Below the pieces are notes generated by a model, which had not been told where the DNA came from, did not search any database, and worked only from the letters and a program-made list of their open reading frames with translations. A stretch of DNA of 64,000 nt. It comes from Kappaphycus alvarezii. Taxonomy: Eukaryota > Rhodophyta > Florideophyceae > Gigartinales > Solieriaceae. Shown here one piece after another: positions 1,422-47,860 of this stretch (position 1 is its first letter; each line of letters starts with the position of its first letter). The translations under genes were made by a program, and so were the position numbers. Where the stretch lies: positions 1,364,001 through 1,428,000 of the forward strand of contig NADL03000513.1 of NCBI GenBank assembly GCA_002205965.3, given 5' to 3'.

Positions 1422-2958
1422 ATGGAACCCGGAAACGACTTCCCCTCGGACTTTCTTCTAAACTCCACAACCACCGCCTCCTCCTCTAACCCAACCTCAT
1501 CAATACCCAACGTCACCGCCGCCTTTCCCTCCTCATCCCTCACACCCCCCTACCCGTCCATGCAAACTATAACCCCTCACTTCAAATTAACCCGCACGCC
1601 TCCGCCCCCTTCCTCATTCTCCCCACCACCAACAACCCACCCCCCCACCTCACCATCACATCATCACCGCCGACCTGCAATTCCTTTCCAACCGACTGCC
1701 TCCCGCCCCTCCCGCCACTCCCAACTCCACCGCTCTCATCCTCCATCTCCTTAACCCACTCACCCCTCAGTGGATCTCTGACTTTCTCTTCACCCCTGAT
1801 CCCACCCACATTCCCCTCTTCTCCCGGCCCCCACCCTCCAACACCCTCCTCCTCAACACAAACACCACCCGTCTCCACTGCTCCGACCTCCAAACCCCGT
1901 TCACCCGCCCGCAACCCACGTCGCCGCCTCCGTCCTCCTCCTCCCCGCATTTTGCATCGAAACCCGCACCCTGGGCTTCGGCGTCGCGCAAGGACTGGAA
2001 CTCCAAGGCCTCACGCCCAACATCACCACCCCCCCCAACGCCCCCGCCTTTCGAAAACACCTCCGCTTCCTTCATGACGCTACAAACCACTCCCTCCTCC
2101 TCCTCATCGACTCCCCTGCAGAAGACACCCTCATCATCGCCGCCTGGTGGCACCAACACCTCACAACTGCCCGCACAATCTCCGCGCGACTCCATCGTCG
2201 CACCTTTCTCACCTCCCTTCGCCAACATCAAAACGTCCCCTCCTTGGACCTCCTCATGGCCTGTTTGATTTCCATCACCGATCAAGCGCAGTTTCGCACC
2301 TGCCCGCGTTGCGGCTCGGCGTATACTGTCGGCTGTGGGTGTGAACCTTGTGTGAGACGCGCGAGGCATGCGTATGACTTTGTGCCGTTTCGAGAAAGCA
2401 TGGGTAGTGGCTTTGGGTCGTTTGTGGGGTCTGGGTTTCGGCACCGGGGGGAGGAGGTGCGCAGTTTCGGGGTGGTGAGTCGGATTTTGCGAGGGGTGGA
2501 GGAAGGGCTGTTGGAGGAGATGATGGAGTGGGGTTTGAACATGAAGGGGTTTCAGGTAGGGGGGATGATGAGGATTTGAGTTTCGGGTTTCTCAAGACTA
2601 CATTGGAATCGGACTCTTCGGACGAGCCGATGGAAGAGTGCAGCGTGGATTCGGTGGGCAAGGCATGGGCGGGTGGGGAGGGGGAGAGGGTGTGAAGAGT
2701 GTGAGTAGGGAGGAGGAGAAGAGTCCGGAAGAATTGGCCCGGTTGAGACGGGCAATGGACCGGCGGGAACGGAACCGGTTGGCGGCAAGGAGAAGTAACA
2801 GGAAGAAAAAGCAGGAACGGGACGCGAAAAAGGCGGAATTGGAATCGCTAAAACGACGGGAGGATGCGTTGCGAAAGCGAGAAGCGAGTTTAAGAAGAGA
2901 ACAGGCTTTATTGAAAGAACTGGTGACGGCTCGGGAGGACAGGATGGGGCGGGATTAG
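1422..2958 (+). CDS. bZIP transcription factor (frame interrupted at five homopolymers)
   Basis: The C-terminal part (about 2770-2930) carries a clear bZIP: basic region NRLAARRSNRKKK followed by a zipper with leucines at four heptads (ESLK...DALR...ASLR...ALLK). It should bind DNA in the nucleus as a dimer. Upstream lie a Ser/Pro-rich N-terminus, a conserved-looking middle region (LTPQWISDFLF; ITDQAQFRTCPRC), a Cys cluster CPRCGSAYTVGCGCEPC near 2300-2350 and an acidic SDSSDEPMEE segment. The ATG at 1422 is the first in the frame. Coding potential moves through frames 0-2-1-0-2-1, each a single missing base, at C6 (1545-1550), C7 (1640-1646), C4 (1895-1898), G6 (2559-2564) and a G run (2675-2684). 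With those bases the gene is 513 codons. A sixth shift at G4 2945-2948 would extend it to 3083. I infer sequence error; a young pseudogene is the alternative. Confidence 0.8.
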
Positions 2959-3083
2959 GTGGGAATGAGAGCGAGTTGGGCGAGTTTAGGATATCGAGTG
3001 GCTGGAAAGAGTGCGTATCGGAGTTTTGGGGTTTCAGGTGGAGGAGAGGCGTAACTGCAAAAGGCTGGGTAAGGGATGCGTGA

Positions 3084-3860
3084 ATTGGTACAAGCGCAAG
3101 ATGGTTTTGCTGCAAGGTATGGGTAGAGGGCGATAGAGGATGAGGACGGACGCGGGGAAATCGGGTAGTGCTGATTTGGTTATCGACATTCACGCGTTCA
3201 GAGGCGTACGTGGGCTGCTAGCAGCCGGGGAGGGGGTTCTATGGTGCGTAGAAAGCCGTAGAGAAGTTTTGTCGTAAATGGGACATTGTGGAGAGGAATT
3301 TCCGTCCGTGGAGGTGAATGGGCGTGGCATGTGTCGACGTCGGGGCTATTCTTTGGGGACGAGTAGTGGATGCGGGCACGTAAAGTATGATAGATTATGA
3401 ACAGGTACAAAGTGGTACAGTACTGTACAGTACAGTATCAGCAAATAGGAAATCGGTTTATGCATGGAAATACAGAATCTGGAAGGCTATAGGTACAAAG
3501 TACAGTTGACTTTGATTACATTTGCGTCAGCATAGATTTAGATTGAATCCATTCGGAAGGAATCAAACTGTACATTCACGGATGGACACGTGTGGACATG
3601 TAGAACAATTCATGCAAAAGGAAACAGCAAATATTGGTGTGCTGAGCTGTTATTCAAATAAGCACCCGTTATGTACGGGAAAAGAGGCGTGGAAGGTGGG
3701 TACAATAACAATGCACAGTTATCGGAATCCTCCTGGCTGGAGACTGCGACTCTCGCTCACCCATCCCTTTTCGACGCATAATGCCGCGCTGTACACGCTG
3801 GCATCATTATAACCCTCCTAGCATTTGCATTGCATCAAATGCACCGCCTACACCTTGCAT
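3084..3860. other. Intergenic stretch with a GTAC cluster
   Basis: No supported gene; the ORF at 3522-3812 has no recognisable motif. A GTAC palindrome group (GTACAGTACTGTACAG) lies at about 3416-3437 and a single related word near 3493-3505. Confidence 0.5.
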
Positions 3861-3887
3861 ACATTAAAATAACCCAAAAATTCCCCC
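3861..3887 (+). mobile_element. 3'-terminal stub of the C-tailed non-LTR family
   Basis: The 27 bp match the extreme 3' end of the element at 49395-50106 read in its own sense (TTAAAATAACCC then AAAAATTCCCCC). Upstream the match fades within a few bases, so this is either a tiny 5'-truncated insertion or an old decayed copy. No clear target duplication is seen. Confidence 0.45.
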
Positions 3888-4329
3888 GTCCTAAAATATC
3901 CCATACGTGTTAACGACACTGTTTCCACATCATAAACCTCCGATGAGGACCGCCGATCTTTCCCGCTTACATCCCCCACTTTTCATTCGCCACACAATGC
4001 CCAATATGTACAGTACCAATGCCCCGCTTACAAAACTATTATTATTCCCATATCGACATCGTCACAAAAAAACACCGCCAGTCCCGAGACCCCACTATAA
4101 ACCACTCTCTGATAAACTACTTCCCACTCCTGTGACCCCCGCCCTCCCTCCATTATCCGCCCTATACTACCCCAAACTGCCACGTGTAACACGTGCGTCT
4201 GGTCTTCACTTCATAAAGCGGTCAGACCTACACGCATGTCAACGGGTTGAGGTAACTCAAGAATGCGTAAGTGCCAACTTTCCCAGTCTTATGACGTTTC
4301 GTTCAAGCCATGATTCAGCCTCTTCAATA
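3888..4329. other. No recognisable gene
   Basis: An open plus-strand frame covers 3907-4569, but its first half has low-complexity composition and its second half is antisense to the retrotransposon fragment at 4330-4790. Nothing else is visible. Confidence 0.4.
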
Positions 4330-4790
4330 CGAATACATTTCCACCAGCTGCACAGTAGCTGGTGGCCCGGTCAACATGCGAGCGGCGTTGGAGGTGACCA
4401 TCAACACGGCATGCGCTTCAAGGAGAGTGGCATTACCCTAGAGTATTGGTGTAGGCCTCGGCTAGCAAACGATCGCGCCACCTCCTTGATTGTGGAGAAC
4501 GCATCGGGGTACCACCCTTCGATTCACAAATGTCAAATCACAGAAATATGTCTCCTTCGCGTCCTATAATCCTGATATCAGGCCTCGCGCAGTGTTGACC
4601 GTCCGGACAGGGCACCATGGCCGGGTGCTTGGAGGCTCTTGCCAAGTCAGACATGAGGAAATTACACTGCCAGTCATGCCTTTCAATTCGCTCTAGACAG
4701 GCAGTCGCTGCTCATTCTCCTGCCTGCCCGCACGCTCACGCCCCCGCGGTTCATCAATATGGTCTAGAGCCACTCGCAACCTCCGTTCCT
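4330..4790 (-). mobile_element. Fragment of endonuclease-type non-LTR retrotransposon
   Basis: Translated on the minus strand this aligns with the C-terminal part of the element at 49395-50106: RHDWQ...FLMSDLA then HCARPDIRI (restriction-like endonuclease core, RPDI being the PD of PD-(D/E)XK), followed by a LLEAHAVLM tail equivalent to the WHPDAYAVL segment there. Nucleotide identity to the copy at about 25.9 kb is also visible. Frames are broken, so it is not functional. Confidence 0.6.
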
Positions 4791-4842
4791 CATCGCAAAA
4801 CGCGAGCGTACAGCTATTCCAAGCGCATAGGACACCCAACAA

Positions 4843-4905
4843 GGGGGGAATTTTTGGGTTCTTTTAACAGGAAAGGGTTAGGTGTTTTACTTTTGGAAGA
4901 TATAT
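4843..4905 (-). mobile_element. 3'-terminal stub of the C-tailed non-LTR family
   Basis: Starts with GGGGGGAATTTTTGGGTT, matching the first bases of the copy at 49395 (the minus-strand 3' end), then diverges over about 40 bp while keeping a GGAAGAT...TATATCC echo. It is a short or decayed copy separate from the fragment at 4330-4790, which lies on its other side. Confidence 0.45.
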
Positions 4906-5129
4906 CCGATGTATCGCATAGTTTTCTAGACAATCACAATCGACCCATGAAGGTATGCAGACACAGTAATGGGGAAGGAACTACGCTCCCTGAAAGCCTA
5001 CCTTCAGGCCAGCCATCAAAGGAGTAGTATCCTGTACATTTTTTTACTTCTGGTACGGATATCCCTGGTGTGAGCAGAATAGAATCAATTCTACATTCCA
5101 TAGAATCCTGTGTCAATCACCTTTGCATC

Positions 5130-6418
5130 ACGGAAAACTACAATAGTCCCTTTCTCAGGCAAATGAACCTTTTACCGACTTACACAATCAAAAGCAAAAC
5201 GAACGCCCTCTTCTACACGCTCCCAGAATTTGTCTGCTCGATTCTACTTGGGAATATGAAAAAATGTTTGTGCTCCAAACTTTCTAATATGGGACTGGTC
5301 AGGGCATTTTCGGTGGTAACTTCCACTGGAGTTCTCAACTGCTCACTGCAAGCAACATTCATTTTCTATATAGCAAGCCGTTTTCATCGCCTCTGTCCAT
5401 AAGCGTTCAAGTTGCGGGATGTAGTAAACCATCTGCATCATTGTAGGAGCCATATCCATTAGTGTGATTTAATCGCTCAGGTTTTCCATTTTATTCTGGT
5501 GAGTACGGTGCGCTAAACTCGTGAATAATACCACCGTTGTTGAGACAGCGGTTGAAATTTCTAGAAACAAACTCTCTACTATTATCAGTACGGCGTCGGT
5601 GTATTTTCATGCACTCCACTGTTGCGTTACAGTTTGTTCCTAGTTCAATCACCATCTTTTTTAATGCTTGGGATGCCTACTTCTTCGATTTAAAAAACGA
5701 AAAAACGAAAGGGCGCCATCATCTTCATAAATTGCTTTGCAGAAACGAAAGCCACCCGGAGAGTGATAGCGGGTGGAGTCAACCAGGTCAGCGTGCAAGA
5801 AATCCAACGCCTTCGTACTTCGATCGTTGATCGGATTACGTGTTTCTCTCACAGACTTTCCTTTTAGACACTTCTCACAGCTTAACAGCTCTTTGAAGTT
5901 ATTTATGTCAATTCCATCAACTAGTGGAATTTTTTCTCGATAGTTGTCTTCCCCAAATGCCCAAATCGTGCATGCCGTATGTCTTGTTTCTATGGAGTGA
6001 AAGCGCAGTCCCGAACTGCAAGTCAATGATTGACGTGCTCAGTTTATGATTCACTTGATTCTGCATGTAACTTAATCTCGTAAAGGCCATCATCACAATC
6101 GTAGCCATTGATTAAAATCATAGAATCATTCTGTTCCGCAACATTAAAGATACATTTGCGCCGAAGACTGGAAACTGGTAGCAAGTTGCACATAAGATTA
6201 TGAGTATGGAGTACATCGTTCAAATGTATGTTGAAGAGGGATTCCTCAAATGACAGGGAGTTCTTGACGATACCACGAGCACTTACTTCGGTCTGTTTTC
6301 CATCGCCGACAGAAATCGAGTTCATGTTCGCAATAGAAGTGCTAACGTAAAAGAAAAGGTCGGTACTGTACTGTTTGACATGTGTATAGTGGCTCCAGAA
6401 TTCATAAACACTCTTCAT
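5130..6418 (-). pseudogene. Copia pol remnant: protease, GAG-pre-integrase, integrase
   Basis: The protease part keeps the spacing ISVGDGKQTEV...GIVKNSL...VLHTHNLMCNLL typical of Copia. The pre-integrase finger reads LSCEKCLKGKSVRET (CxxC...GK..R). The integrase first catalytic Asp is in FLHADLVDS, the second in YEDDGALSFF, and the SAPYSPE.NGKPERLN block carries the Glu region. An in-frame stop interrupts SAPYSPE.NG and others occur downstream, and the reading frame changes several times. Confidence 0.7.
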
Positions 6419-7263
6419 TTAACTTTTCGGGCTTTTCAGGGGACGAGGCAAGACAATTGGCAACAAATGAAATGTATCCGTTTCCAACACGGTCACTGTT
6501 TCCATGGTCATGCGAACTCTGGAAATACTCCTTTCTATTGCTCCTCTCGCTTCCATGACAGCCATTGTGGCCATAGTTCTTCCTGTATTCCCAACCTGGT
6601 TTGTAGGAAGAATTATCGGGATCATCCTAGAATTTAGATTCAATATGGCCGTTTCTTCACACAGTGATGAAACTTATTCTCTGAATATCCTCTTCTGGCG
6701 GTGGGATCAGTCTAGCCCTCGTAATTATGCTCTCGTTTACGAGAGCTGCTGCTATCTCTCGTAGCAGACTACTTTATGATCAGTGTACCAATTGCTGCTG
6801 ATCTGCCTTTGTCGAGTTCCCTAATCATGTCTGCGTTGTGGTCAAAGTCATCCGTTAAACCACGCAACAGTGATCTTGGTTGCTAGTCTCTGCTAACAGG
6901 ATGACCAATACTAGCTAGTTTGTTTTTGAGTACAGTAAGGCGGTTTACGAACGGCATGATGCTTTACAAGTCATTATCTCGCATAGACTAATACTGATCT
7001 AAATAAGAATCAAACTCAGCATTAAAAACGGCATTGAAATGTCTCTTTATTATATTAAAGAACTCTCTTGGGTCTTCAAGGTTAATGACGGAAGCATTGC
7101 ATCCATCAATGACACTGATTAGGATGTCAGCTAACGCTAGGTTCTTCCTAATCTCATGCTTCTGAAACTCCTCAGCACTTTCATTGGTTGATACAGCCAC
7201 TTTTCGGCTGAAAATTACCCATACGCCTTTCTTCGTCAGTACGAGTTTCATTTTCTGGACCAA
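6419..7263 (-). pseudogene. Copia gag remnant
   Basis: The ORF at 7263-6988 reads as the N-terminal gag region (KGVWVIF...ALADILISVIDG...LEDPREFFNIIKRHF), matching the usual Copia pattern in which transferrable residues precede an 'x-W-x-x-L' block. A basic, Gly/Asn/His-rich stretch with a lone knuckle-like GHNGCHGS follows at about 6590-6540. Between them the frame is broken at 6770-6980. Confidence 0.6.
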
Positions 7264-8808
7264 CTGCGGTACGTTTCAGTCCTGAGTTTCTCTATCTCAT
7301 GACCGCTTGCATCAGCCTTGTTCTCTGCCCTGCCCATTGCGAGCCGCAAAATTTCTACAGTTTTCGATATCGATTATGATAAAGATTATGATGTAGGAAA
7401 AACGATGATACTCGGAACCTCAGAACAAGCGTAAATAATGAGCCTATAATCTAATACACCACAATATTACACAAGTTCTTGGACTTACTTAGCTATCTTT
7501 ACTGTTTTGATCCCAGCAACATATTAGGTAGAGAACTTGACGATTTGAATTTTAGCGATTGAGTCTATGACAAATTATCTACGTGAAGACCGAAAGCACA
7601 TGTAAGTCTCCTTTCTTGGAACAACCATGAATAGAAGCACTTTGAAACAACGCTACAGCATTGAAAATCACAGCAAAGCTGAAGCAAGCATAGTGATGCA
7701 CTTTAAATTAATTGTAACCAGTTGAGTTTGTAACCATATACCGCAACATAGACCAGAGAAGCACCAGTGGGAATTCTCGAGTTCGAGTCACCGGAGATGA
7801 ATTGGGAAAGTTAATTTTCTCTGGCGTAAGGATTTGACGTTAGTTACGTAGAATGTGTTATAGTAGCCCCCTCCGATGCTCACCAGAACCGGTTTGCCTT
7901 ACTAGAACCTGGAGGAGATACGTGATTACAAGTTTTACTGCAAGTAAATGGGCAAAGGGAGTTCTTAAGGTAGCCAAGTGGGATTTCTAACACAGCTTCA
8001 ACGAAAACGATCGAGAAAACAACTGTTGAAGTTTTACTTTCTTTACATCCCTTAAATTTATTTCAATTTCAGCCAATGAAACTGTCAGGCGGTCTCTCGA
8101 AGACGGTAGCCAAGACAGTGACGCTCAAGGTCTGCCTTGCTTGGGACTTCTATTTCGCAAATATTGCAGATGCACACTTTTTGTCGGCGCGGTGTTGGTG
8201 CTTACGGGAATGAAGGTGCTCTTGATACTGCACTCGATCTGTGCAGGTGAATTTTCAGAGACGGTAGTGGAAGGGAGAAGATCGAGTGTTCATGTTCAGT
8301 CGAGGCCATCTGGTCTTCTTACAAATGCAGTGGTTGGCAGGTACCTTGATGAACATAAAAGTCACGTCAGGATTAATCGGTAAGATATGCTTGCGCTTTT
8401 CGGACTTGCAGCGAAGGACTACGGGGCTTCCCGGTATCTTGGGGAGAGTGAGTGGCGACACAGTCGCAAGCAGTCTGAAAGAGGATGGTCTTGGTGTCCT
8501 TGGTTCTTCCACCTGGATTTTTGGGGGTTTTCTCGGTCCAAATGTAAACTTAAAAGTCTTCTGGTCCTCGTAGCTTTTTGGAGAAGAACGATTGTAATTC
8601 TTCTTCCTAGTACTAGTCCGGAGATGAGGGGCGACCCCTGGAAGATTTCTCTTTCTGCACTGATCGTTATAAAAAATAATCAAATAAAAAACAAAAAAGC
8701 TCGGCTCTGCCTGTAATCGAACAGAAAGTCAAATCTAATAGAGATTTTAACTTACTTCCAGATGGAAGAACTCGAAGTACTAACAAACGAATATGCGATG
8801 CTACCAGA
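7264..8808. other. No supported gene; one weak 142-codon ORF at 8255-8683 (-)
   Basis: Most of the stretch is AT-rich with no motif. Both strands are open across about 8255-8716 where composition is more balanced; the minus ORF is basic and Pro-rich with no domain I recognise. It might be a gag fragment of an LTR element given the solo LTR starting at 8809, but that is a guess. Confidence 0.35.
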
Positions 8809-9341
8809 TGTGGAGTGTTGAGCGCAAGAAGGATAATCGATGGTTGAACTGTTAGTTGATGCTTCCGGAAAACATACCGGATTTTCAGACCAGGAGGCAA
8901 ATGAAAAAATACTCGACGACAGCCGGAGTGAATTGTAATCAGATAGTGCTTCAGAATAATTTAGAACAGATAAGTAGAAATTGTCCTAGAATAGCGTCCT
9001 TAAATGTATCAAAACTCCGAGGTTCAGAAGGCTCATATAGCCCCTATCAGTGTGACTGACAGCGCTAGGCATCATGGCAAAGTTCTATCTGTCCAACTGG
9101 AAAGAAACAAAGTAGTTCCCGATTGTTGAGGAGTGAGAAGCTTCGAGAACAACGTTTGGTCTACATGATGGCTTCAAGTCATTGTCTTGGCACAAAATGT
9201 TATAATCTTTTGTTTTACACTGGTATATGGGCACAGTGCACATGTTTCACTGATGCATTGGTACATTATAAATCCTTGGTAACAGTTACTGCTAGGGTTT
9301 TTCCAGGGCATATTAGTGGATATATGGACATAATCGCCACA
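8809..9341 (-). repeat. Solo LTR, inverted relative to the copies at 14.1 and 58.6 kb
   Basis: The reverse complement begins TGTGGCGATTATGTCCATA and ends CTCAACACTCCACA, matching the LTRs at 14071-14584 and 58640-59156 over their whole length at visibly lower identity. The ends TG...CA are conserved. The flanks CCAGA and TAGGG do not match, so the target duplication has decayed or the ends recombined. Confidence 0.65.
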
Positions 9342-13535: not shown

Positions 13536-13608
13536 CTACGTGAGGGGAATTTTCGGGTTATTTTAATGCATGGAAGAAGTGGTCGGTTATATCCACGCGG
13601 CTACGTGA
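13536..13608 (-). mobile_element. 57-bp 5'-truncated non-LTR tail with target-site duplication
   Basis: Bases 13544-13600 match the first 60 bases of the copy at 49395 (GGGGAATTTT, then GGGTTATTTTAATGCATGG, then TTATATCCACGCGG). The insert is flanked on both sides by CTACGTGA (13536-13543 and 13601-13608), a perfect 8-bp target duplication. This is what very early abortion of target-primed reverse transcription leaves: only the 3' end is copied. Confidence 0.8.
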
Positions 13609-14584: not shown

Positions 14585-14589
14585 CAATG

Positions 14590-16495: not shown

Positions 16496-16600
16496 TGTAC
16501 GTTATGTACATAATACAGTAATGTACGTATCATGTACATTATATTGCACATACATATTGTACATCATTATACAGTACTGTACTGTACTGTACCGTAGTAC
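16496..16600. repeat. GTAC palindrome cluster
   Basis: Dense overlapping GTAC words: GTACGTTATGTAC, ATGTACGTATCATGTAC, then CAGTACTGTACTGTACTG at about 16573-16590. The nearest plus ORF starts at 16609 but has no recognised function; this cluster is therefore not tied to a known gene. Confidence 0.7.
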
Positions 16601-21286: not shown

Positions 21287-21289
21287 TTG

Positions 21290-22598: not shown

Positions 22599-24185
22599 TC
22601 ACTCTATAACTGATCCACCCGACGCTGTCGCTGGATCCATGGCCCAACCACCGCTTAACCTACTCACCACCCTCATTCGCTGAGGAAGCTTTCGTCGCTC
22701 GACCTTCAACAGCAGCGGTGTTAACTGCAAATGACGCACCAAGTGCACCATCTCAATCAAGTCCCCCTCTGTCCCCACCGTCACAAAGTCCCCCTCATCG
22801 TCGCGATACAGCACCTCAATCTCCCTATCCTGTACAGCTCCTAACCTTCTAACGGCCTTGCAAAACCCAGGAAAGGACAACCCCACCTGAATCCAACCAG
22901 ACCTCCTTACCCCATGGCTCTCCACCTCCACTGCTAATCTCTCCTCCTGTTGGTAATCTGTCACGTCCGACTCAACCTCATCCGACTCCACCCCTTCGAT
23001 CACCTCCTGGTTTCCCGGCACCACCGCATCCTCCTCATCACCCATGTCCATCTCCGCTTCCTGAACCACAACATCTCCCGCACCGATCGCATGCGCACTC
23101 ACTTCTTCCACCACATCCCCGGGTTCTATCTCCATCTCCTGCTTTCCAACCAAATCCTCCACGTCCTCCTTTTCGTGAAAGCACAGGGGTTCCTCCTCCG
23201 TTTCCTCCTCTTTCTGCACTCCCTCCGCTTCAACCTCCTGCTCCTGCTCTTCCTCCTCCAACTCCATCACCTCGCCAACTTGTAACGCCCCGTAGTACTC
23301 CTCCACCACGGGGTTGCGATAATCCACCCGGCCCCTCTCCACGCCTCGCCACGCACGCACCAGGCATCTCCTTCCCCCTTCTTGCGTAACCAAACTTGCC
23401 TTCCCTGTACCAGTCAAGGCCATCACCATGCCGCCCTCCTTAAATACAGTCCAACAGTCGTGACACAAGCTGCCGGTCCCATCCGGCCCACACCACCCCC
23501 CACCAACGGCACCACACCTCGCACACCAACACACAACCACATCCCCATCGAGTTTCCACCACAAGCCGCCGGTTCCATGACCGGCCTCCACCGTATGCAC
23601 GGTCCACCCATGCCTCGGGAACACACTCACTGCTCCATTGCTTCCAAACAATCGAAGAGCATTAACCGCATATCTGCCGCTACATTTTAGGCACAAGGTC
23701 CTCGGCCCATCCGGCCCATTCGCCCTGTACCTTTCCGTGGACCCTCACAATCATCAACCACACACCAAATGCGATCACCATCCCCTGCGCAATCTCCGCA
23801 CACGCCTCAACTCCATCCTCCGTGACCGAGCGCAAGCCGGACGGATACGGCGGCAGATTAGGTTGCACAGGGCCGCCCCTCCATGACGGGGCGTTTGCAC
23901 GGGCAACGAGACTCTCGGATGCGGTCATGGGACGGACGATTGGGCGGGATAAATCGCGGCCGTGTGTGCCGGGGGGAAACCAAGAATTAGCATCGGGCGG
24001 GCGGTTGGGGACGGAATGACGGTGAGTTTTTGAGTGTAGATATCTTCGTAGAGGGTGAGTCGGTGGTGATAGTAGCGCGAGTAGCAGCGGGAGCATAGGG
24101 TGCGTGGGCCGTCTGGCGATAGGCCCCATTGGTTGGACGATGTCGCGCTGCAGGAGGGGACGAGGCAGCGTGGAGGGGAGGGCAT
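22599..24185 (-). CDS. Protein with three GATA-like zinc fingers and a PB1 domain (three homopolymer shifts)
   Basis: Finger 1 (CLVPSC...SPDGPRTLCSRC) and finger 2 (CVVDDC...GPDGPRTLCLKC) both have the form C-x4-C-x18-C-x2-C; finger 3 (CARC...GPDGTGSLCHDC) is C-x2-C-x16-C-x2-C. All carry the GPDG...LC turn of GATA-type fingers. A long Glu-rich acidic region follows, then a PB1-like domain near the C-terminus (LYRDDEGDFVTVGTEGDLIEM). I infer a nuclear regulator that may oligomerise through PB1. The start is the ATG at 24185; a TTTATAAGG box lies about 105 bp upstream. Phase changes 2-0-1-2 need one base each at G6 23971-23976, C4 23782-23785 and T3 23732-23734; the equal x18 spacing of fingers 1 and 2 after correction supports this. 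Corrected length 529 residues. Confidence 0.8.
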
Positions 24186-24540
24186 GGTTGGCGGTGTTGG
24201 CTTGTCGGTGGAGGAGAGGTTGGAGAAGGGCAGAAGGGGCAGAGGGGTGTAGAAAGTGGTGGGAGAATGTGATGGATGAATCAGGGGATCGCCTTATAAA
24301 CGATTGGACGGGTCACCGGGCGGTGGGCTTGCAGACTTGCATATAAACGTTACAAGACAAAAGCCGGAAATACGCCAGTTGCACTGTCTCCGATGCAGGT
24401 CGGAGACACGCCGGAGACACGCCAGCCCCTCTGTCGCCGCTTGGATCGCGACACGACTGTATCGTACCGCAAGTTCCAAAAACAGAATTCAAGCTTTACG
24501 GGTACAAGCTTCAAGCTCTTCAAGCTTTTCAAGCTTTTAA

Positions 24541-24825
24541 GGGTACATACCGTAGGTACAGTAAACAGTACACGGTAGCTTTGGTGGTCTATAAATTTGA
24601 AGGCGTGTACGCGGTAACTCGGTAAGAAACCAGTTTAAGCTACTGTGTGTACTGTACTGTACAGTACAGCAGCACCATCTTTCGGAAACGCTTGCCAATT
24701 TCTTTTGATAACTAGCGCAGCCTGCCCCGCGTACGTTTACAGTACAGTATTTATTACATTAGTCCGAGGTTTAGCGTACGATAAAGCTTTGTGATTGTTC
24801 CCGTGTGCTTACTGTACCGTACAAA
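24541..24825. promoter_or_regulatory. GTAC palindrome clusters upstream of the GATA-PB1 gene
   Basis: Words of the GTACAGTA type lie at 24541-24575, GTGTACTGTACTGTACAGTA at 24645-24664, TTACAGTACAGTA at about 24738 and TACTGTACCGTACA at about 24811, that is 350-640 bp before the ATG at 24185. The same word family is found before the other host genes. A run of AAGCTT-like short repeats (CAAGCTCTTCAAGC) at 24490-24538 is also present. Confidence 0.6.
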
Positions 24826-36324: not shown

Positions 36325-37104
36325 ATGACTCCACGACTACACTCAATACCGGAACTTCATGGCAATCCACCACCCAATCCCATCTCTCAGGATTTCTTTC
36401 ATTGGCACGTCGTTCTTAACCATACCAATCCCCCCAAACTTCAGCACATGGACCTCAATAATACACTACCAATATTACCGAAAACCTTCCGCCAATCCCC
36501 TCCGTCGATAACCTGCTCCACCTGCCTCGCCGCCAAATAGTTGCCCCAAAGAAACCCTACTCGACCACACATGTACCCGGTCGGTTCCTACATTAGCAGT
36601 GACACCTGTGGCCCATTCAAACCACGTTCCTGCTATATAAACTTTCATTTCGTCACCTACCTGGATGCCAACAGCCGACATCTCATCATTTTCTTCATTC
36701 CCAACAGATCCTCCTTCAAACGCACAACAACACTTGCCATAGCCTTCATAACTTTGCATCAACACCGCTCCCCTTCCATATACAGACCGCACAAAGCTCG
36801 CGAATTATAGAACAACGAGATGAACAATCTCTACAACTCCCACGGCATAGAATACCGCTCCAACAATCCACACCAACTGCGAGAAAATTCCTTAGCCAAA
36901 CGCATTAATAGGACGCTCGTCACCGACACCAGAGCCGCTCTCCATCACTCCCAACTGGACGATATATTTTGGGAAGAAGCCATGCGTGACGTCATTTTCA
37001 AGTACAACCTTACCATTCACCACGCAACTGGCAAATTATCCGACCAACTCTGCACCAACACATCCCCAACATTCTACGCCTATTTGCCTTCTGCTAATTG
37101 GTAA
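36325..37104 (+). pseudogene. Copia pre-integrase and integrase remnant
   Basis: The pre-integrase part reads HWHVVLNHTNPPKLQ...ITCSTCLAAK (HH-CC finger). Integrase keeps SSDTCGPF (first Asp block), TYLDANSRHLIIFF (second Asp) and NNEMNNLYNSHGIEY, then LRENSLAKRINRTL where a catalytic Glu is expected before R-x-NRT; that residue is Lys here. Internal stops at 36538 and about 36808. Confidence 0.7.
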
Positions 37105-37404
37105 CGATCCCAAATTAAAACGCCCAAAAGAAGAAAGTCGAGCCCCGCGCCGATCTCGCCTGATTCATGCCCAATACTTCCCCAACTCACATGGTCGCCC
37201 TGAACCTCCGCACAAATCAATACACGAATCTACGCCCCGTCTACTTCAAGCCATACTTCCACCATCTGGACCCCCTCTATCACCACCTACAGGCACTCGC
37301 TACCTCCACCAACAGGATAAACCTATACCTCATACTATCACCGATTCTACCCCACCCCTGACCTCCCTCAAACAAGCCCGCCAATTTTCAGATGCCGAAC
37401 AATA

Positions 37405-38254
37405 GGCCTTCGCTCATGACGAGGAACTCGATACTCTGGACACAACGATCACCATAGAATGGGTACCAAATTCCACCATCCCTCCCGACACCAAGCTCAT
37501 TCTTCTAAAAATTATCTGCCGATACAAACGCTCCGACAACGGCGAAATAATACGACACAAAGGCAGGTGCACCGTACGAGGAGACCGAATGAAGCCATGT
37601 ACTACCTTTGACCCCGACCGAGTCACAACATACACAGCCGAACTCCCATCAATTCGCACAATCATGTGCCTTGCTGCCGCATTCCACCTCTCTTTTGAGC
37701 AATTTGACATTTCTTCGGCCTTCTTACGCGAATGGTACGAGCACTCAGCCTCCGTCTGCATTCAACTACCCCGCTTAAATGGCACAAATAAGCACCCAGA
37801 CAAAATTATCAAGCCCATCCGCCACCTCCACGACACACCTACCGCCTCCCCACATCTACTTCAACGCACTCAAAAAGTTCTTCAAATCTTCACAGTACCA
37901 AAAAGCCGACAGAGATCCGTGCCTTTTCTTCCTTTACACAGAAGAAGGCCACTTTTCATCACCATTGCCATCGATGATTTCTTTGTCTCCGCTGCCTCGC
38001 CAACAATTATTTCCCACTTGTACACTACTCTCAAGTGCCAATACAAAATTCCCCGTCTTGGCGTGCCCAAGCTTTTCTTCATCTGGCAAATCGAACACTT
38101 CCAAGACGGCTCCATACATATATCCGAACCTCACAGAGTCCACTCCATACTGCAGAAACACAATCTGGCCGACTTCAATCCAAAGCCCACACGCTACACT
38201 GACACAATAAAACTCCAAAGGTACCATATCCCCCCCCTCTCTCACAACCAGTAA
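37405..38254 (+). pseudogene. Copia reverse transcriptase remnant
   Basis: Recognisable blocks: KGRCTVRGDRMKP (usual K-ARLVARG block), AAFHLSFEQFDISSAFLREW (usual DV..AFL.G block) and ITIAIDDFFVSA, which keeps the two active-site Asp residues of the YVDD box. The palm region around 37800-37930 is out of frame and a stop ends the frame at 38252. Confidence 0.7.
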
Positions 38255-38347
38255 GACCTTCACGTTCCGCCAAACTGTCGGCAAGCTCCGCTACTTAGCG
38301 GATTCAACACGCCGGATATCGCTCATGCCGTCAGTCGCCTCGCCACT

Positions 38348-38900
38348 GTGATGCACAGCCCAAAGGAACATAACTTGGATCAGCTTCGGTACCTTCTTAA
38401 CTACCTGAAAGGATCGGAGACTCAAGGCATTCTTTATAACTCACTCCCTTACGAAAAATTGATCACATACGCGGACGCTAAATTTGTCAACTCAACCGAC
38501 CGCAAATCTTATACCAGTATTATTCACCTGCTTACCCGCAGCCCAGTCATGTGTAAATACAGTAAACAAAATATTGTCTCCATGTCCACATGTGAAGCGG
38601 AGTACATCTCCGCACCCTCCGCAAAGCAGAAGTCTCCCTGGCTCCAATGACTTCTCTCTGACATTTTTCACGCTCCGAATACGCCGACACCGCTCTTCAT
38701 CGACAACCACACTGCCATTCAAGTCGCACGACAAACCGCGCCAACCAAGCATCGAAAGTGTATCGATTTGCGGCACCACTTCCTCCAAGACCTCATCAAA
38801 ACACACAGCCTCGCCGCCAAGCATGTCTCCAGCGTCGCAATGCTCGCTGACCTTCGTACAAAGCTTCTCCAACCCCAACGCTTCCGCCATCGTCGACATG
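38348..38900 (+). pseudogene. Copia RNase H remnant
   Basis: Blocks HNLDQLRYLLNYLKGSETQG, LITYADAKFVNS, SKQNIVSMSTCEAEYIS, then DNHTAIQVARQ and KCIDLRHHFLQDLI followed by MLADLRTKLL. These are the standard C-terminal landmarks of Copia polyproteins. The Asp of YADA and the Glu of CEAEY are kept. One stop at 38648 splits it. Confidence 0.7.
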
Positions 38901-39084
38901 CTCTCAACACCCTTCCGCTTCCGTCACAGACTCCCATCAGCGTGCCGGGGGTTCCAGACCGCACATTTTCCACACTGATAACAGTCCGAGCTCCTGCCAG
39001 ACCACTCACACGGATGAAACGTGCAGAAGAATCATAGATAACGACGCAACCGGCGTCGGCGCCACCTCGAAGTAACGGTATCAA

Positions 39085-39960
39085 CTCTCCTTCGTCACAC
39101 TGTCAATTCACTAAAGCACTGGAGCGATAAGCTCTCTGGGTAATCGGCCTGGCGTTCCACAAAGGAATCAACGATGCATTCCTCCTAGTCCATCCCCCCA
39201 CTGACACGGAAGTGTCAGCAGTACACTGGAAGACCATGGTATGCCGCTACCTTGGACTGCCTGTCTACGATGACTCGCTCCTTCCGAACTGTGAGAATTG
39301 CAAACGACCCATTAAAAGGCCAAGAGACCACGAAGTGGACCTGTTTCCTTCGGGTTTCGGTCGCAAACACCGTCATGACTCGCTACGCAACGTCATTGGC
39401 GGCCGTATCGCCTGTGCAGTCGGTCTGGACTGCCAGTTTGAAGTCCCGCTCCTGGTGCATGGCACAGAGCTAAGACCCGCTGACATCCTCATCCATCCAC
39501 TGCCAGCTCCCGGCGGCACTGCGAAACGCCCATCGCCTGCGATGTCACCGTCGTATTACCGTTCAAGGCCAATGCACGATCAAGGGCTACCCATGAAGTG
39601 GGAGTTGCTGCGTCAATTGCGCACCGCAACAAGGTCATTGACATGGCACGCAAACTGTCGCGTCGAGTCCCCCGCCCTCCGATAACCCCACAGAATCCCC
39701 CAATTTCGATTTCCAACCGCTGGCTTTCCATTCCCTGGGTTTGCCTCCCCCCGCTATTATCCGCTTCATAGACGACCTCCTCCGGCGCACCACGGAAAAA
39801 TTGCATACATCTGTTAGAGTCATCGGAACGTGAATCTACCGACGCATTAGTTCCACGATCTGGTCTTCTCTGGCGAACGCTATCGTGTCCCGTACACCTG
39901 TGCACGCGGCCGACGTGGAACACCCGGTTGGCACTTTTCTAGCGTCTATAGGACCGTTGT
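39085..39960 (+). mobile_element. Non-LTR retrotransposon fragment: endonuclease domain and C-terminal tail
   Basis: Open from 39212 to 39685: LGLPVYD...NCENC...DHEVDLFPSGFGRKHRHDSLRN, then CQFEVPLL and RPADILIHPLP, the finger plus PD-(D/E)XK region that follows reverse transcriptase in endonuclease-type non-LTR elements. A CDVTVVLPFKA block continues in another frame, then FQPLAFHSLGLPPPAI and HPVG at the tail. The third finger Cys is lost (DLF instead of a Cys). It sits directly behind the Copia remnant. Confidence 0.7.
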
Positions 39961-40329
39961 TCTCATGTGATGACTACTTTTGGCACTTCTTTTTAAATAC
40001 AAATTTCTTTTACCTCAGCGCATTTCTTGTCCCTCCGCATTAGTTCATGAGTTTAGATGGCCGATCAAAACAAACCTTTCAAGATTGTTGACCTCAGTTA
40101 AGGCTAGAGCAATTTTCGTTCACCAACTTCCGCTCTTCGCAAGAAGTTGCGAAAACGACTTCATTTGGAAGGAAATATAGTTCGCATTATTGTGGGGTTT
40201 CAGAAACGAGGGCTCATGTACGGTAAGAATTACTGTACTGTAACTTAACATAAAAAACCTTTTTGGCAGCAAAAATTTCGGGCTTCCAAAAAATTTACCT
40301 TTCCAAAATGTAACGGAAACTGTCCTCAT

Positions 40330-40502
40330 ATGAGGACGAAGGGGGGAATTTATGAGGTGCTTTACTGACTAGGCAATCAGGACGGCTATTTTCCGAAGGC
40401 TAAGGGGGACGTGTCTGTGTAATGTAGAGTCTGGAAATGAGGCCGAGTCACGAGGTACTACCTCAAAGGGCTGGTGTGAGGCCAGCCGTAAGGCATGAGG
40501 AC
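40330..40502 (-). mobile_element. About 157-bp 5'-truncated non-LTR tail with ATGAGGAC target duplication
   Basis: From GGGGGGAATTTATGAGG at 40341 the sequence follows the 3' region of the element at 24941 (GGACGGCTATTTTCCGA, GGCCAGCCGTAAGGCATG) and similarity stops abruptly at about 40494. ATGAGGAC is present on both sides (40330-40337 and 40495-40502), as expected for a target-site duplication. This is the second aborted copy in the window. Confidence 0.7.
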
Positions 40503-40589
40503 AACGTGTGCCTCATGTGAGGACAGTGCTATGACGGATAGATAGTAGCAACATAGTCGGTTCCTGCACGGGACCCCGATATTAATGCA

Positions 40590-40870
40590 GTAAAGTTTTC
40601 TCAATGTGACGTTCACGCCCATCACGATTGACTCTTTGGGAGCCCCGTCCACTGCCACCACTCGCCCCTTGATTTTATACCCTTGATCGCCCTGCCCCTC
40701 CTTTCGGGCAACCGTACAGTTCGCCGAAGGATCCACCGCCGTCTCAGCTCAATCACTAGGGTCGCCCATGGCAATGTCCGTCCTGTTCCGCTGTCCCAGG
40801 CACAAGACGCTGACGTGGCACATCCAGTTGGTTCCCAACTATAAAAAGTCAGTCACGTCAGTGCACTCGC
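40590..40870 (+). mobile_element. C-terminal tail of non-LTR retrotransposon, decayed
   Basis: The plus frame FTPITIDSLGAPSTATT recalls FVPLAFDSLG of the other tails, and RIHRRLSSITRVAHGN...DADVAHPVG aligns with RIYRRISSTIWSSLAN...AADVEHPVG at 39840-39930. DNA identity is plain over the last 30 bp (GACGTGGCACATCCAGTTGG). Frames are broken. Confidence 0.5.
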
Positions 40871-41329
40871 CATGAACCCATTAAAATAAAATATGAAACC
40901 AAGTTTGAGTACCAGTAACATCTTTAGATCAATCTGTATAAGTGCGGCTCACTGCCTGGTTCGACCATTCGGCCAAGATCTAACCGGATGTAGCACGTTG
41001 GCCACGTGCAGTGGGGTGCGAGATAGGATGGACATCGCTTTGGACGACAACCTGGCCCTACCGAGGCGTCGGTAGTTGCGCCAACGAATCGCACCGTCGT
41101 ATGTGAGGTATCGGTGAGCTACGCAAGGATAAATTCGCCCAGCAGTTAGGTGGTCCCGGGAGCGGGTACACCTAGGAAGTGTAGGGCGGAAATCTAAACC
41201 AGTGTCGCAGTCTGGGCTATCGGAGGGGGTGTTGAGCGACGTGCGAGCTTGTGTCCCAGGTCCCTGAGCTTTTCCCGGTGGGCGGGACCGGCGGCTCCAC
41301 CAGCAGTCTGGGTTGCCTCTGTTATGGCG

Positions 41330-42130
41330 ATAGTCATGAATGGCGAGACCACCGTGACATCGAAGGCGGTGGGTTGGGGCTGGTCAGTGGCAGGGAGGGT
41401 CGGATGGTGGATGGTGGACTAGTGTGTGCGCGGCCGTGAGTTCCGTACTCGGGACGAGGAGTGGGACCTCGAACTGACAAACTAGTCCTGCAGCGCGGGT
41501 GACGTGATATTCCAAGGTGTTGCGTTGAGATTTGTACAGTAGCGATGGATGAGCCCGTAACCAGACGGGAAAAGGTCGGCGGCGTGGTCGCCAAAGTCGT
41601 CCTGGTGGTGCAGTGTTGGTACTGGAGCAATAACGGGTCCGAGTACACCGGGAGATGTAGGTGGCCGTGGAGCGGTGGGCAGAGAGGAAGGCGGATGCCG
41701 GGGTTGGCCGGAAGGCAAGACCGCAGATGCGAGGCCTGATGTCATGGACGCTGTAATGAGTCGGGTTGGGGTCGGCGCCCAACCGTTGTCGATCCAGTGC
41801 ATCTTAGCTCTGGCTTCTTGCTGCACTCTGTTAAGCAGGGTTTGAGTTTTGATAGGGAAGCAGCAAGACGTTCCGGGTGGAAGGGGCCCGAGGCTGGGGC
41901 CGCGCTGGGGCGAGTGTGCGGGGACGTCGGTCGGGAATGTTGCTAGTGACGATGGAAGGACCGGTCCCCACAGAAGCGGATCCGGATTAGCTCGCGGTGG
42001 CGGCGCTAGGCGCTAGGGAGTGACCGGCGGATGAGTGAGAAGTCGTGGCCGCCCAGCGGAGTCGGGAGGCATACTTGATTCAAGGTGGCGTTTGTAAGTG
42101 GGATGCTGTGCTGTACCTGGTTCGAAGACT
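41330..42130 (-). mobile_element. Non-LTR retrotransposon fragment: end of reverse transcriptase and endonuclease
   Basis: On the minus strand, LNQVCLPTPLGGHDFSL (about 42090-42040) fits the end of the reverse transcriptase thumb (Q..LP...GGL), and DHAADLFPSGYGLIHRYC with CQFEVPLLV (about 41600-41440) matches the endonuclease part at 39300-39480. It is GC-rich and has several shifts. It ends close to the promoter of the Rrn7-like gene. Confidence 0.6.
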
Positions 42131-42310
42131 TCTGTAGGATAACTTTACCACAGACTTATGCAGGTGCAACATGCATAGTCTTGAATACCCCACTGTAACA
42201 AACCCAAAATAATTAGGACTTTTGTAACAAGACTTTGAGTAGAGCGTGCGCGCATTACAGAATCACACTGTACAAGGGATTACGAGTGGCTCATTTTGCA
42301 GAATATTTCT

Positions 42311-42332
42311 CAGTACTGTACCATACTGTACA
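42311..42332. promoter_or_regulatory. GTAC palindrome pair upstream of the Rrn7-like gene
   Basis: CAGTACTGTACCATACTGTAC lies about 135-155 bp before the ATG at 42466. Same word family as at the other host genes. A CTATACAG at about 42390 is nearer the start codon. Confidence 0.5.
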
Positions 42333-42465
42333 CGAGCGTGATGGATGCACCATTGCACGATTCCCAAAACGACCGAGTCCGCCGTCGATACTATACAGTA
42401 GTTGATGTCAGCTCCAAGCTTTACCCAGAGCCCTGCTCATTTGGCGACTTTGCCTCGGCCAAAGT

Positions 42466-44036
42466 ATGCCAGAATGCCCAAGCTGTGGATCCCAGGATTT
42501 CTCACCCGATGGGTCGGGGAGTCTCATCTGCTCCGTATGCGGAGAGCAACTGGCCACCTTCCACGAAGAAGCCACGGACGAATTCATCAGTGGTACAGCG
42601 CTTTACAACCGCTTCTCCCAGTCCCAAATCGCCTCCCAAACCCGTGAAAGGATCGCCGCCCCACCGCGCCCAACCCCGATCACCTCTGCCAAAAAGACAT
42701 CCTGGGTACGCAACAAAAACTACGGCCCGTTCTCAGTCCGCCACACCGTCACCCTGGTCCGTGAAATAGTCCGCTTGCTCCAAAAAGCGGGCTATCAAAT
42801 CCACAACCTGCGACAAGTGCTTGTTTTCCTTGTTGCCTTTTGGGCGGAGCATGTCTCCAACACGGAAGTTCGTCTCATGCCAAGCCAATCAACCATGACT
42901 CATGCCTTTGCCCTAGTTTCCCTAGCATGCTTGCACATAGCACTTCCCATTCTTCCTCGTGACATACGCGCCCTGATCACTGTCATGTCTCCGGGAGCCC
43001 GCCCTCACGCCGCTAAATTTGCAAAGCTAGACGGCGGCAACTGGATCACACCATCGGTCAGAGAGATGACCATGGTTGCCCTGTGGCATGTTTCAAGCGG
43101 TGATGCGTGGCCCCGGTTGTATCAGTGGTTTCCGTTTCACAATCGCTACGGTCACATCAACACAAAACGACTTGAGTTTCCCATCGCCCATGTTTCGCTA
43201 ACCGTGCTCCGATTGTGTCGCCTCGTCGGAGCCAGCGATAACTTTGGCCAACGCGTCTGTCGATATCTCGACCTTGAACCGGTCGCCTTGACCTACGCTA
43301 GGGACAAGGCGAATGCTACTCGGCGTACCGCCGCTGCGGAACCCGAGAAGAGAAAAGATGATCACGAAAAATGGGTCACCACGGATGAAAGCCTGCAAAT
43401 AGCTTTCATTAACACCATGCGACTTTGTTACTATCAGGGACAGCTCCATACTTTGGCGTCTGCAGACGAAAAAAAGGCGCTCATCGATGAGTGGAACGCC
43501 ATCAAGGAGAAACTCTTTGAGTGGCTACAAAATGGTCACTACGAGGACGCAGCCTCTGTGACTTGGGCATGCTTGTCACCCCTGAGCTTAGCGACGGCTC
43601 GTGGGGATCAAATTGAACTACTCTCTACTATTGCAGACGCCACTGAAAGAGTGCCCCAAAATGGAGACCGGGTCTCAATGCGCACGTCTTGGATGCCTTT
43701 TCCTGGATAAGTGAGGGTGCCAAGAAGCAACACTTTCCTGCAGATATTTTGTCATGTTCGCGCAGTTTGTGGCATGAGATCCCCAGTCTTTCCTCCCTTG
43801 ATGACATGCGCGCACCGCACATGAAAACCCTCACCAATTTGGAGATACCTCTCACCAAAAATTGCACCAATCATTCGAATACCTCCATTGCGGATGCATC
43901 ATGTGAATCTAGTGATCCCCCAACATTTCTGATACCCAAAACGACTCGAAGCCACCATCGAGTGATCAACGAAGAAAGGCTGCCGGCGGTGCTGAGGAAA
44001 TTTGTGACGATGTTGTTATCGGAATGGTTTGGGTAG
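42466..44036 (+). CDS. Rrn7/TAF1B-like RNA polymerase I initiation factor (one homopolymer shift)
   Basis: The first 25 residues form a zinc ribbon, CPSCGSQDF...LICSVCGEQL (Cys 4, 7, 22, 25), as in the TFIIB-like factors Rrn7 and TAF1B, which help load RNA polymerase I on rDNA promoters in the nucleolus. Behind it is a helical region suited to a cyclin fold (VRHTVTLVREIVRLLQKAGY...VLVFLVAFWAEHV...ALPILPRDI). The start is the ATG four codons before the first Cys. At CCCCAAAA (43654-43661) the frame moves by one missing base and continues with KWRPGLNAHVLDAFSWI to the stop at 44034. Corrected length 523 residues, close to the family's usual size. Family assignment rests on the ribbon plus general layout; another TFIIB-type factor is possible. 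Confidence 0.7.
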
Positions 44037-44178
44037 TGATCAGGGCATTTTTCACTGGTTGTCACCGGTTCTCCTCGGTGACCACACCATACGACACGGA
44101 CGTTCGCAATTTGAGTTGGCTCGAGGGAGCAACAGATCGCTAAAAGCCGTGTTGCTATACTTGCGCGATATGGAGGGC

Positions 44179-44595
44179 TCATAGAGGTCTTGGATGTGCT
44201 GCTGCGATCATTGCCGTGCAGAGAAGAATGTCTAACTGTAAGAACATTTCAGAAATTCCCGCGAAATCTCTCACATAGCTCTTTCGGACAGTAAAGCACA
44301 TGCGCTGCACATTGTCGGGGTGACCCTCAACAGCGGCCTTCAAGAATGGTGCAGATATTGTTGGAAACTGGAGGAGGTCCATGACCTTAACGAAATCACC
44401 ATTGGGAAAACGAATTCGGTTCAATACCATCTGGCATTCGAATATGCACAAACACTTACAACCGGGGCCATTTGTTCTAGACCAGTATCGGCTCCCTCTT
44501 TGCGCTGATTTCTCAAATAACTCGTAAGTACTCCATGTGCTGACCGGAAAGGGGTAGTCCTTGGTTTGAAACCGGTGATATGTAAACTGAAACCG
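44179..44595 (-). other. Open frame continuing in phase after the DNA2 stop codon
   Basis: After the TAA of DNA2 (44598-44596) the same phase stays open for about 138 codons, with protein-like composition (KDYPFPVSTW, YELFEKSAQRGSRYW, CKCLCIFECQ, FPNGDFVKVMDLLQFP). The first in-frame ATG is at 44430. No family recognised. DNA2 itself has a natural C-terminal end before the stop. Either a separate gene, an alternative extension, or chance. Confidence 0.3.
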
Positions 44596-47500
44596 TTACA
44601 AAAGTGATAAAGGATAGACCATGTCGTTTCGTTGCAAGTAGGTCAGCAAACTCTTCAAGGTATGTCCATTGTTCTCAAGCGATACGGTGGATCCCACAAG
44701 AACAAGTTTCCTCTTCGCTCTCGTTATGAGCACATTTAATCTCCTCCAGTCGCTTAGCAGTCCACCATTTGGCCCATTGCTGACGATACTTGCAATCACA
44801 CAAGTGTTCTCCTTTCCTTGAAACTGGTCTACAGTAAACGAGGATACCTCGATGTTTTCATCCCGGAACCGTTTCAACACCGCCTCCACTTGTGCGCGAT
44901 AAGGGCTTAGGATAGAAATGTTGTCGGCACTCACACCGTGGGTGAGAAACAGTTTTGTTACTTTTACAACGCCCTCTGTCTCTGTTACGTCGCTTTTGCT
45001 TGCGGCACCGCGACGACGGGACTTTGGAACTGGTGTTGACTGCGCTGTGTTGAGGAAGAATACAGCTCGAGCAGGGTCGAGAAGTTTCTTCTCCAAGGTC
45101 CCCAACCCGGCAGCCGTGCGGACATTCAGCGGCCCCCCGTAGTTGCGGTACCGCACATCAAGTTTCCGCTGTAGACGATGTGGTTTCCTAAGTCCATAAT
45201 CTCTTTGCACATACGATATTGCCGCCGAAGGCTAACAACGGTGTCAGGGTGAAGCTGGCAAAGCCGTCGGAACAATGACTCAGTCCCATGCCTCACGCCC
45301 TCAGATTGCTCATCTGCATGCATAGTAGAGTTTTGTCGATCGTTTTGCGCCCGTATCAAGGGAGGCAACTGGTAATGGTCGCCAACGAGGATGAAAGGGC
45401 CCTTCGAAAATCTTAGCGGTGAAATGCATATCGGTTGCAGAATCTGAGAAGCCTCGTCCACCACGGTAACATCGAAATTTGACCGCCTGCCGAAAAGAGG
45501 ATGATTCATTCCAAGACACGTTGTGGCGACAACAGATGGTTTACTATACGCTTTCTCCCACATCGTTTCGTCAAATATGTTTCGGTCCAGCAGGTTGCTT
45601 TCGTGATACTGGCGTATCTTTGGATGCACGACCCGATAGTTCTTCCCCAGGCGAATGAAATCGTTACATCCAAGGCTTACTAGTGCCAGAAGAAGATTGT
45701 CTACGGCTGCATTTGTGTAGGAACACAGCAGGACGGATTTCCCCTGTTGACAAATGATTTGACGATTGCAGCTAATGTCGTTGTCTTGCCAGTCCCAGGC
45801 ATACCGAGGATGAGAAGATAGTCTCGCAGGCGTTGGGCGGCTTCGTATGCTTTCTGCTGATCAGCGTTAAGGCTGAGCGCCATGTCCTTGTAATCGTCAG
45901 ATCCAGACAATTTGCCGTCGAATCGTGGAGCCCGTCCGTCGATAATGAGCTCCCTAAGTTGCTGCAAATCTGGACTACAAATTAAGTCATCCAAAGCATC
46001 CTTGGCTAGATTGTACGATGAAGCCATTTCGCTTACATCAATGCGCCATTTGACCTTGTCGAGATCTACAAGATGTGCTAAAGCCCATCCATTCAGATCC
46101 GTATCTACAGCGACTTGAACCCTTTTGGCATCCAAAGACTGAAGGAACCCAATTGTAACTGCTGTGAATGAAGTTTTTGGCACAACGTGTGAAGAGTCTC
46201 TATCGCAGTGCTTAAGTTCTGCTGAAACAATGACAAAAGCCCCGTTTGAAATAGAAACCGTACTTAACGGCGCGTTTGCCGAGGCGCGCTCAAAAGACAC
46301 CCGAAATCGCTTCGCATTGGAATCCCCTGGTTGAAATTTGTCAGAATACGTCTCCGTTGCAATTATTTTCAGGTCCGCAATGCACTTGCCGAGCGACTCT
46401 CTTTGCAAGCTGCTCATGGCCCAGAGTTCATCTTGAGTCTCAAACACGGACTTCTCTTCTGCGCGAAGAATGCCTCGCCACAATGCGTAGTAAGACGCAT
46501 GTCGTTGATCAAGATGCCGCGTCTTTTCGAGAAACAACTCCTCGCCTGGTCCACTGCGTGCACTTTCTGCAGTTCCACCCTCCAGCAACTTGAACTGCAT
46601 CATGCACTTGTGATTCACAAAGCACTTTGAACAAATTCTTTCCCCATCTTGTAAAAGACCTGGAAATGTTTCGACACTATCCATCCGGAGAAACGTCGCA
46701 AGCTTATTGCGCTGCATGAGCAATCCTGAGACACTGGCGCGATCTCCAGTGACCATTTTGATCTCTACATCGAGATTCGCCGGAGGCTTATAAACGCCGG
46801 GCATGCTGCCGTCCGCAGTGCCAGACGGAGGGTTTGCTGCTTGCAATTTGCTTCGATCGTATCGCAAATACGAAATCATGCCCATTTTAACTGGTCGACG
46901 ATAGCGCTCAGTCATTTGCAAGGCGTAGAGCATGACCTGTGCGGAATGGGAATTACCCGCTATGCCAGATGATGATCCCGTTTTCAACTCGAGAGGGCCA
47001 ACGACATGTGCGGAAGCATTTGCGGCAAGATGAACAGAGGCATCTATCTTTCCCTTGAGTCCAAAAGTTGGACTCCAGATCAACTCCTCTATATCGGCAA
47101 CGTCCGTGATGTGCGGATGAGGTTTGGATTGGACAGGGGGATTGTGAGTGGATTGTGGGCAAGGGCCCTGCATGACCTCGAAAAACCAACGGTCGATTTG
47201 CGGGACAGCAGTATGTAGGGCCTCCCGTGCTGTGGAAATGGGAATATGAGTTGCGTACAGTTGGTCGCCGTAGTCATTGAGGACTTGCTCAATAGTTTCA
47301 AGTATGACGAACATAAAGTCGTCGGTGCCCACCTGCAAAGATCGAGAGGATGACCTGAACTGGGCTTCCAACAAAGTCTGTACAATAGAGTGAATCATAG
47401 AGCCGAACAGTGCGGATGAGTCGATGCCATGGCCGCGATTGATAATCACTGGGGCTCTGGCGTTAATGACGCTCTTGCGAAGACAGTAAAAGGAGTCGGC

Positions 47501-47860
47501 AACAACGGTGCTGGAGATAAGGGTATCTGGATGGACTATTAAATAGTTTGCATGGCGTGTAACGGCGATGGTGTCTCCGGCAATGTGCGACGCGCCTTCT
47601 GCGGAAAATGTGGGTATCCAGTCACAGCCTTGGTCGTTGGTGCCAGTGAAGACAATGCCAATGGTGTCGCCGTGAGAGACTTGCGTTTCCACCCACTCAT
47701 CAAGCAGTTGGACGCAGACTTGAGAACCTGTGGAAAGATCAATGGTTCTCAGTTGCTTCAAGGTGTTGGAATGATGAACATCTAGAACAGAAAGCCTTCT
47801 TGTGACTATGGTGAATGATGGACGGGCGGCATTCGCGGTGGAGATTGATGGCGGCTTCAT
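44596..47860 (-). CDS. DNA2: DNA replication helicase/nuclease DNA2 (two homopolymer shifts)
   Basis: The N-terminal half is the PD-(D/E)XK nuclease with its iron-sulphur Cys residues: FYCLRKSV (about residue 125) and CSKCFVNHKC (about 409-419), with LKGKIDAS and LELKTG carrying the acidic and Lys residues. The C-terminal half is a superfamily 1 helicase: GMPGTGKTTT (Walker A, about 685), VVDEASQ (about 800), VGDHYQLPP, RRQYRM, TVDQFQGKE and NVLITRAKRKLVLVG. DNA2 trims Okazaki flaps and resects double-strand breaks. The first in-frame ATG is at 47860. Phases 1-2-0 need one base at GGGGAAA (45738-45744) and at the G6 run (45133-45138); the first correction restores SYTNAAVDN, the conserved motif Ia. 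Corrected length 1088 residues, near the animal enzyme size. It converges with the Rrn7-like gene. Confidence 0.93.

Follow-up and report, generated by a model that had tools for sequence, protein, structure and literature searches.

Two described systems come closest to the locus analyzed here. For a long-read assembly, the Kastor paper (PMC12007338) describes deletions linked to homopolymers 2 to 8 bases long, together with the loss of a few bases outside such runs. For the collapsed assembly of Trypanosoma brucei, nearby allelic variants are described that led to wrong read alignment and thereby to indels (PMC8445201). The present locus lies in a stretch of 64,000 nucleotides from Kappaphycus alvarezii (the window), taken from the assembled contig C509. 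It resembles the Kastor-paper assemblies in that the changes are mostly deletions, lie at or after short runs, and leave genes fragmented. It differs in that the assembly is large and eukaryotic and holds the region in two divergent copies, the second of which loses many bases away from runs. The mechanism of the collapsed diploid assembly of T. brucei, where neighboring allele differences caused misalignment and indels, is suggested here by five sites; unlike in that case, each copy has a contig of its own. We conclude that the frame changes in the window are almost certainly false single-base deletions in the consensus of an assembly probably built from noisy long reads, and that the genes are probably intact.

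Four genes in the window are split between reading frames. The most readily identified occupies 44596–47856 on the minus strand, where three frame pieces are separated by two one-base steps. The pieces separately match the Pfam domains Dna2 (E 7.1e-43), AAA_11 (7.8e-24) and AAA_12 (7e-30) in order along the gene, and each of the three, again in order, matches the DNA2 chain 5eaw of the PDB. On the strength of Pfam domains and PDB DNA2 chains found with separate pieces, the predicted product is certainly the nuclease-helicase DNA2. The middle, frame-shifted piece carries the SYTNAAVDN motif, which an earlier sequence-only reading had listed among the family features recovered on restoring the frame; a search with this piece against viral contigs found no homologue.

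A second gene on the minus strand, at 22599–24186, comprises four frame segments and three steps and is predicted to encode two GATA-type zinc fingers and a PB1 domain. The PB1 domain matches its Pfam profile with an E value of 1e-6. The first finger reaches 26.6 bits (E 4.5e-6) against a cut-off of 26.8, and the piece holding the second half of the second finger scores 1.5e-4, under the cut-off. The spacing C-x4-C-x18-C-x2-C, counted by hand in the translations, is present in the first finger and also in the second, where it spans the step near 23742, which confirms the identical x18 spacing that had been reported for the two fingers. Together, the PB1 and GATA matches make this predicted identity well supported.

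The remaining two genes lie on the plus strand. The first, a bZIP-type gene at 1422–2958, has six frame segments and five steps, and its bZIP_2 profile match at 2683–2955 (E 0.0046) falls under the curated cut-off. The second, at 42466–44036, has one step and resembles Rrn7/TFIIB-like zinc-ribbon genes through matches to Zn_Ribbon_TF (E 7.2e-4) and Zn_ribbon_RRN7 (E 0.0037), both likewise under the cut-off; its piece had no match in the PDB up to an E value of 1. Since their profile scores lie below the cut-offs, the names bZIP and Rrn7-like are likely rather than proven for these two predicted genes.

Other features of the window include a palindromic GTACTGTACAGTAC-like motif that is matched 12 times when up to one mismatch is allowed, whereas 100 shuffled sequences gave 0.00 matches on average. 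It occurs at 251–264, 620–648, 3420–3433, 16574–16592, 24649–24667 and 48045–48063, and several of the occurrences lie in spacers that adjoin the bZIP, GATA and DNA2 genes. An RVT_2-type reverse transcriptase was detected at 37406–38254 (E 8.6e-17). At 49532–50734, each strand carries a long open frame, one of 340 and one of 356 codons from stop to stop, with no Pfam match up to E 0.01. Rfam and tRNA scans over the window returned nothing.

To follow the frame through the split genes, the one-base-loss phase at both DNA2 steps was derived by hand from the ends of the open reading frames, while the segment frames of the bZIP, GATA-PB1 and Rrn7-like genes were read off three-frame translations. 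All 11 steps of the resulting path run in the same direction, as had been claimed before. For the bZIP gene, codon usage ranks the frame of the path highest in all six segments, narrowly so in the third.

Searching the same assembly (336,021,096 bases in 884 contigs) at the protein level turned up DNA2 a second time, on contig C122, where it is also split over several frames. Synteny led to the bZIP and GATA counterparts on C122. Window positions 173–48048 are collinear with G000:C122:102483-183194, interrupted by sequence unique to one copy or the other. The C122 stretches compared amount to 109 kb, and 27 matches longer than 250 bases join them to the window; 25 of these were listed, the other two having an identity of at most 85%. 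Rates were calculated from 24 blocks, leaving out an out-of-order match at 60908–61900. Within the four genes the two copies show 20.7 substitutions per kb (about 2%), against 100.8 per kb (about 10%) elsewhere, and C122 may represent either a second haplotype or a homeologous copy. The roughly 10% of substitutions outside the genes compares with a dS of just 0.05 to 0.06 inside them, so that the rest of the region stands at about twice the synonymous divergence. Outside the four genes, transitions make up about half of the differences (1742 versus 1703 transversions).

With this second copy, base counts could be compared at each of the 11 flagged sites. C122 is one base longer within 12 bases of nine sites, and within 2 bases of seven, and it is shorter within 12 bases of none. 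When the 14 single-base events in which C122 is longer were placed at random over the coding spans, not one of 100,000 placements attained either seven sites within 2 bases or nine within 12. At unflagged runs of at least 4 bases, C122 is longer within 2 bases in 2 of 106 cases. The agreement extends to all four genes, with the extra base found at 3/5 sites in bZIP, 3/3 in GATA-PB1, 1/1 in Rrn7-like and 2/2 in DNA2.

In the bZIP gene, C122 carries one more base beside a run of six at 1545–1550, within the run at 1908 for the step at 1895–1908, and beside a G run at 2559–2564. In the GATA-PB1 gene, the additional base lies within the run at 23742–23744 for the step at 23732–23744, beside a run of four at 23782–23786, and within a run at 23971–23976. 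The Rrn7-like gene has it within a run at 43654–43661, and DNA2 beside a run of six at 45133–45138 and beside a short run at 45738–45744. Two positions proposed by the sequence-only reading are off: the losses it had placed at 1895–1898 and 23732–23734 align some 8 to 10 bases away, at 1908 and 23742–23744.

The two remaining bZIP sites are of equal length in the two copies. At 1640–1646, a run of seven, three substitutions before the site and two after it support the frame change, all of them (3/3 and 2/2) falling at third positions of the path frame. At 2675–2684, a G-rich stretch, the upstream frame soon reaches a stop, and third positions of the path frame take 2/2 substitutions before the site and 5/8 after it. 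The frame changes predicted at these two sites thus rest on stops and a few substitutions. It is conceivable that these two steps exist in the genome and are compensated when the gene is expressed, for instance through transcript slippage at runs, with the other nine being errors; we regard this as very unlikely.

The number of losses may also exceed 11. Among the 14 places where C122 is longer, nine are at flagged sites and five are not: 42782, 43765 (which adjoins a loss at 43756), 43986, 44603 and 45511. Of these, 43986 lies close to the end of the Rrn7-like gene and 44603 close to that of DNA2; both could be further losses in the window, and the 3′ end of the Rrn7-like gene is uncertain because C122 differs at 43986 as well. 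The earlier count of 11 one-base losses is matched by 11 steps in one direction, nine of them with a longer second copy, but given the five unflagged places it is not closed.

All of these losses had been ascribed to homopolymers. Every one of the nine located losses indeed lies in or beside a run of at least 3 bases, compared with 29% of coding positions; however, the missing base itself belongs to such a run in only four, and in the other five it is a different base beside the run. At each of those five, the base present in C122 and the base of the run are transition partners. Flanking bases of this kind make up 37.7% of the background, so that five out of five would arise by chance with a probability of about 0.0076, a value that refers to five sites. 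From C122, in turn, another 25 single bases of these four genes are missing, eight of them in runs of at least 3, eight beside such runs and nine in neither position. Of the eight beside a run, three are of the transition-partner kind. Since the C122 losses are also enriched at runs (15 of 25, versus 29% of coding positions), the two contigs differ here in degree rather than in kind.

If the genes were truly decayed pseudogenes, stops and frame changes in both copies, which do occur, would be expected. Selection between the copies points the other way. Along the shifted path, dN/dS is 0.14 for bZIP, 0.41 for GATA, 0.11 for Rrn7-like and 0.21 for DNA2, after exclusion of codons at the sites, gapped codons and codons with a stop in either copy; this range of 0.11 to 0.41 does not agree with relaxed selection. 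Reading the second and third DNA2 pieces in the frame of the first gives a dN/dS of 6.15. In the path frames of the three DNA2 pieces, substitutions at codon positions 1, 2 and 3 number 7/10/24, 0/0/8 and 3/2/9. The GATA gene, with its dN/dS of 0.41, is the weakest and least clear of the four: by hand count, the phase of its substitutions gives no support, as third positions take 4/7, 3/9 and 11/28, and in the last segment first positions take 12/28. Overall, substitutions between the copies have mostly been kept from altering the protein along the shifted path.

The spectrum of differences argues in the same direction. Coding substitutions occur at one fifth of the outside rate (20.7 versus 100.8 per kb, 21%), and indels of at least 2 bases at one eighth (0.38 versus 3.19 per kb, 12%), neither of which fits decayed genes. 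Single-base indels, in contrast, are reduced only to 62% (4.9 per kb in coding sequence versus 7.9 outside). Real single-base indels would be expected to be depleted in coding sequence like the other changes, which indicates that they are errors rather than divergence.

Loci elsewhere in the assembly were compared in the same way. The Pfam profile PF04998, of the largest RNA polymerase subunit, matches on seven contigs, and stops interrupt the match on C8, C585, C19 and C736. Six of these contigs form three locus pairs, which were aligned over the match and 1.5 kb on each side and thus include more than coding sequence; the seventh, C556, had no partner among the loci compared. In the alignment of C19 with C52, 31 single bases and 6 base pairs in tandem (two-base gaps) are missing from C19 and 2 single bases from C52, with 40 substitutions in 4,039 columns. 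Similarly, C8 lacks 36 single bases and one pair against C590, which lacks 5, with 62 substitutions in 4,849 columns. That nearly all losses fall in one copy in two of the three pairs might suggest a decaying copy. In the third pair, however, each copy has its own losses (10 single bases in C585; 11, and one pair, in C736), with 3 substitutions in 3,081 columns, which is difficult to reconcile with decay. Over the three pairs, single-base gaps and substitutions number 33 versus 40, 41 versus 62 and 21 versus 3. Of the missing single bases, summed over both copies, 71/95 have at most one identical neighbor in the longer copy. As the window's shifts are moreover missing from C122 at 9/11 sites, we consider it highly improbable that the four genes are pseudogenes. 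The conclusion of the sequence-only reading that consensus error, not decay, explains the shifts is thereby upheld by the C122 lengths, by selection along the path and by the weak coding depletion of single-base indels.

Programmed −1 ribosomal frameshifting at slippery runs could in principle connect the pieces, since every step of the path has a −1 phase, and an in-frame X XXY YYZ heptamer is present at both DNA2 sites and at one GATA site. These in-frame heptamers account for only 3/11 sites, however; another 5/11 have a heptamer out of frame alone and 3/11 have none, close to the phase expected by chance. The second copy needs no slip at 9/11 sites, and five slips within one gene would leave almost no product, which makes this explanation barely credible. 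Equally implausible are short introns, which the eukaryotic domains would permit and for which about 20 residues unaligned to chain 5eaw at the second DNA2 step might speak, given that this stretch is shorter than the chain's own unaligned one (residues 851 to 886), that the 5eaw alignments join without a gap at the first step (chain residues 665 and 664), and that C122 differs by single bases at the sites.

We infer that long reads were the source of the assembly. In a contig with a better consensus, such as that of the window, the remaining deletions would cluster in and beside runs as run length is under-called. The transition-partner sites (5/9) further suggest that, where the copies differ at a run's edge, reads may have been misaligned and one base lost. 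In poorer contigs such as C122, probably of lower coverage, deletions would be more scattered. The artefact is ordinary in kind, and it is useful as a warning.

The aligned coding columns of the four genes total 7.98 kb, over which 9 losses are supported and 11 claimed; this corresponds to about 1.1 to 1.4 per kb, compared with about 3 per kb for C122 in the same genes. In the two better RNA polymerase contigs, 2 single bases are missing over 4.0 kb and 5 over 4.8 kb. As few loci were compared, extrapolation to the whole genome rests on the three RNA polymerase pairs. The earlier advice to distrust gene calls that end at homopolymers was too narrow: because 9/25 C122 losses are neither in nor beside a run of at least 3 bases, and 71/95 RNA polymerase losses are not part of such a run, gene calls in this assembly are suspect in general. 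The second copy offers an error check within the same assembly. If other contigs are alike, many genes of this assembly contain one or more breaks, and any gene count, family size, pseudogene call or selection test based on it would be misleading.
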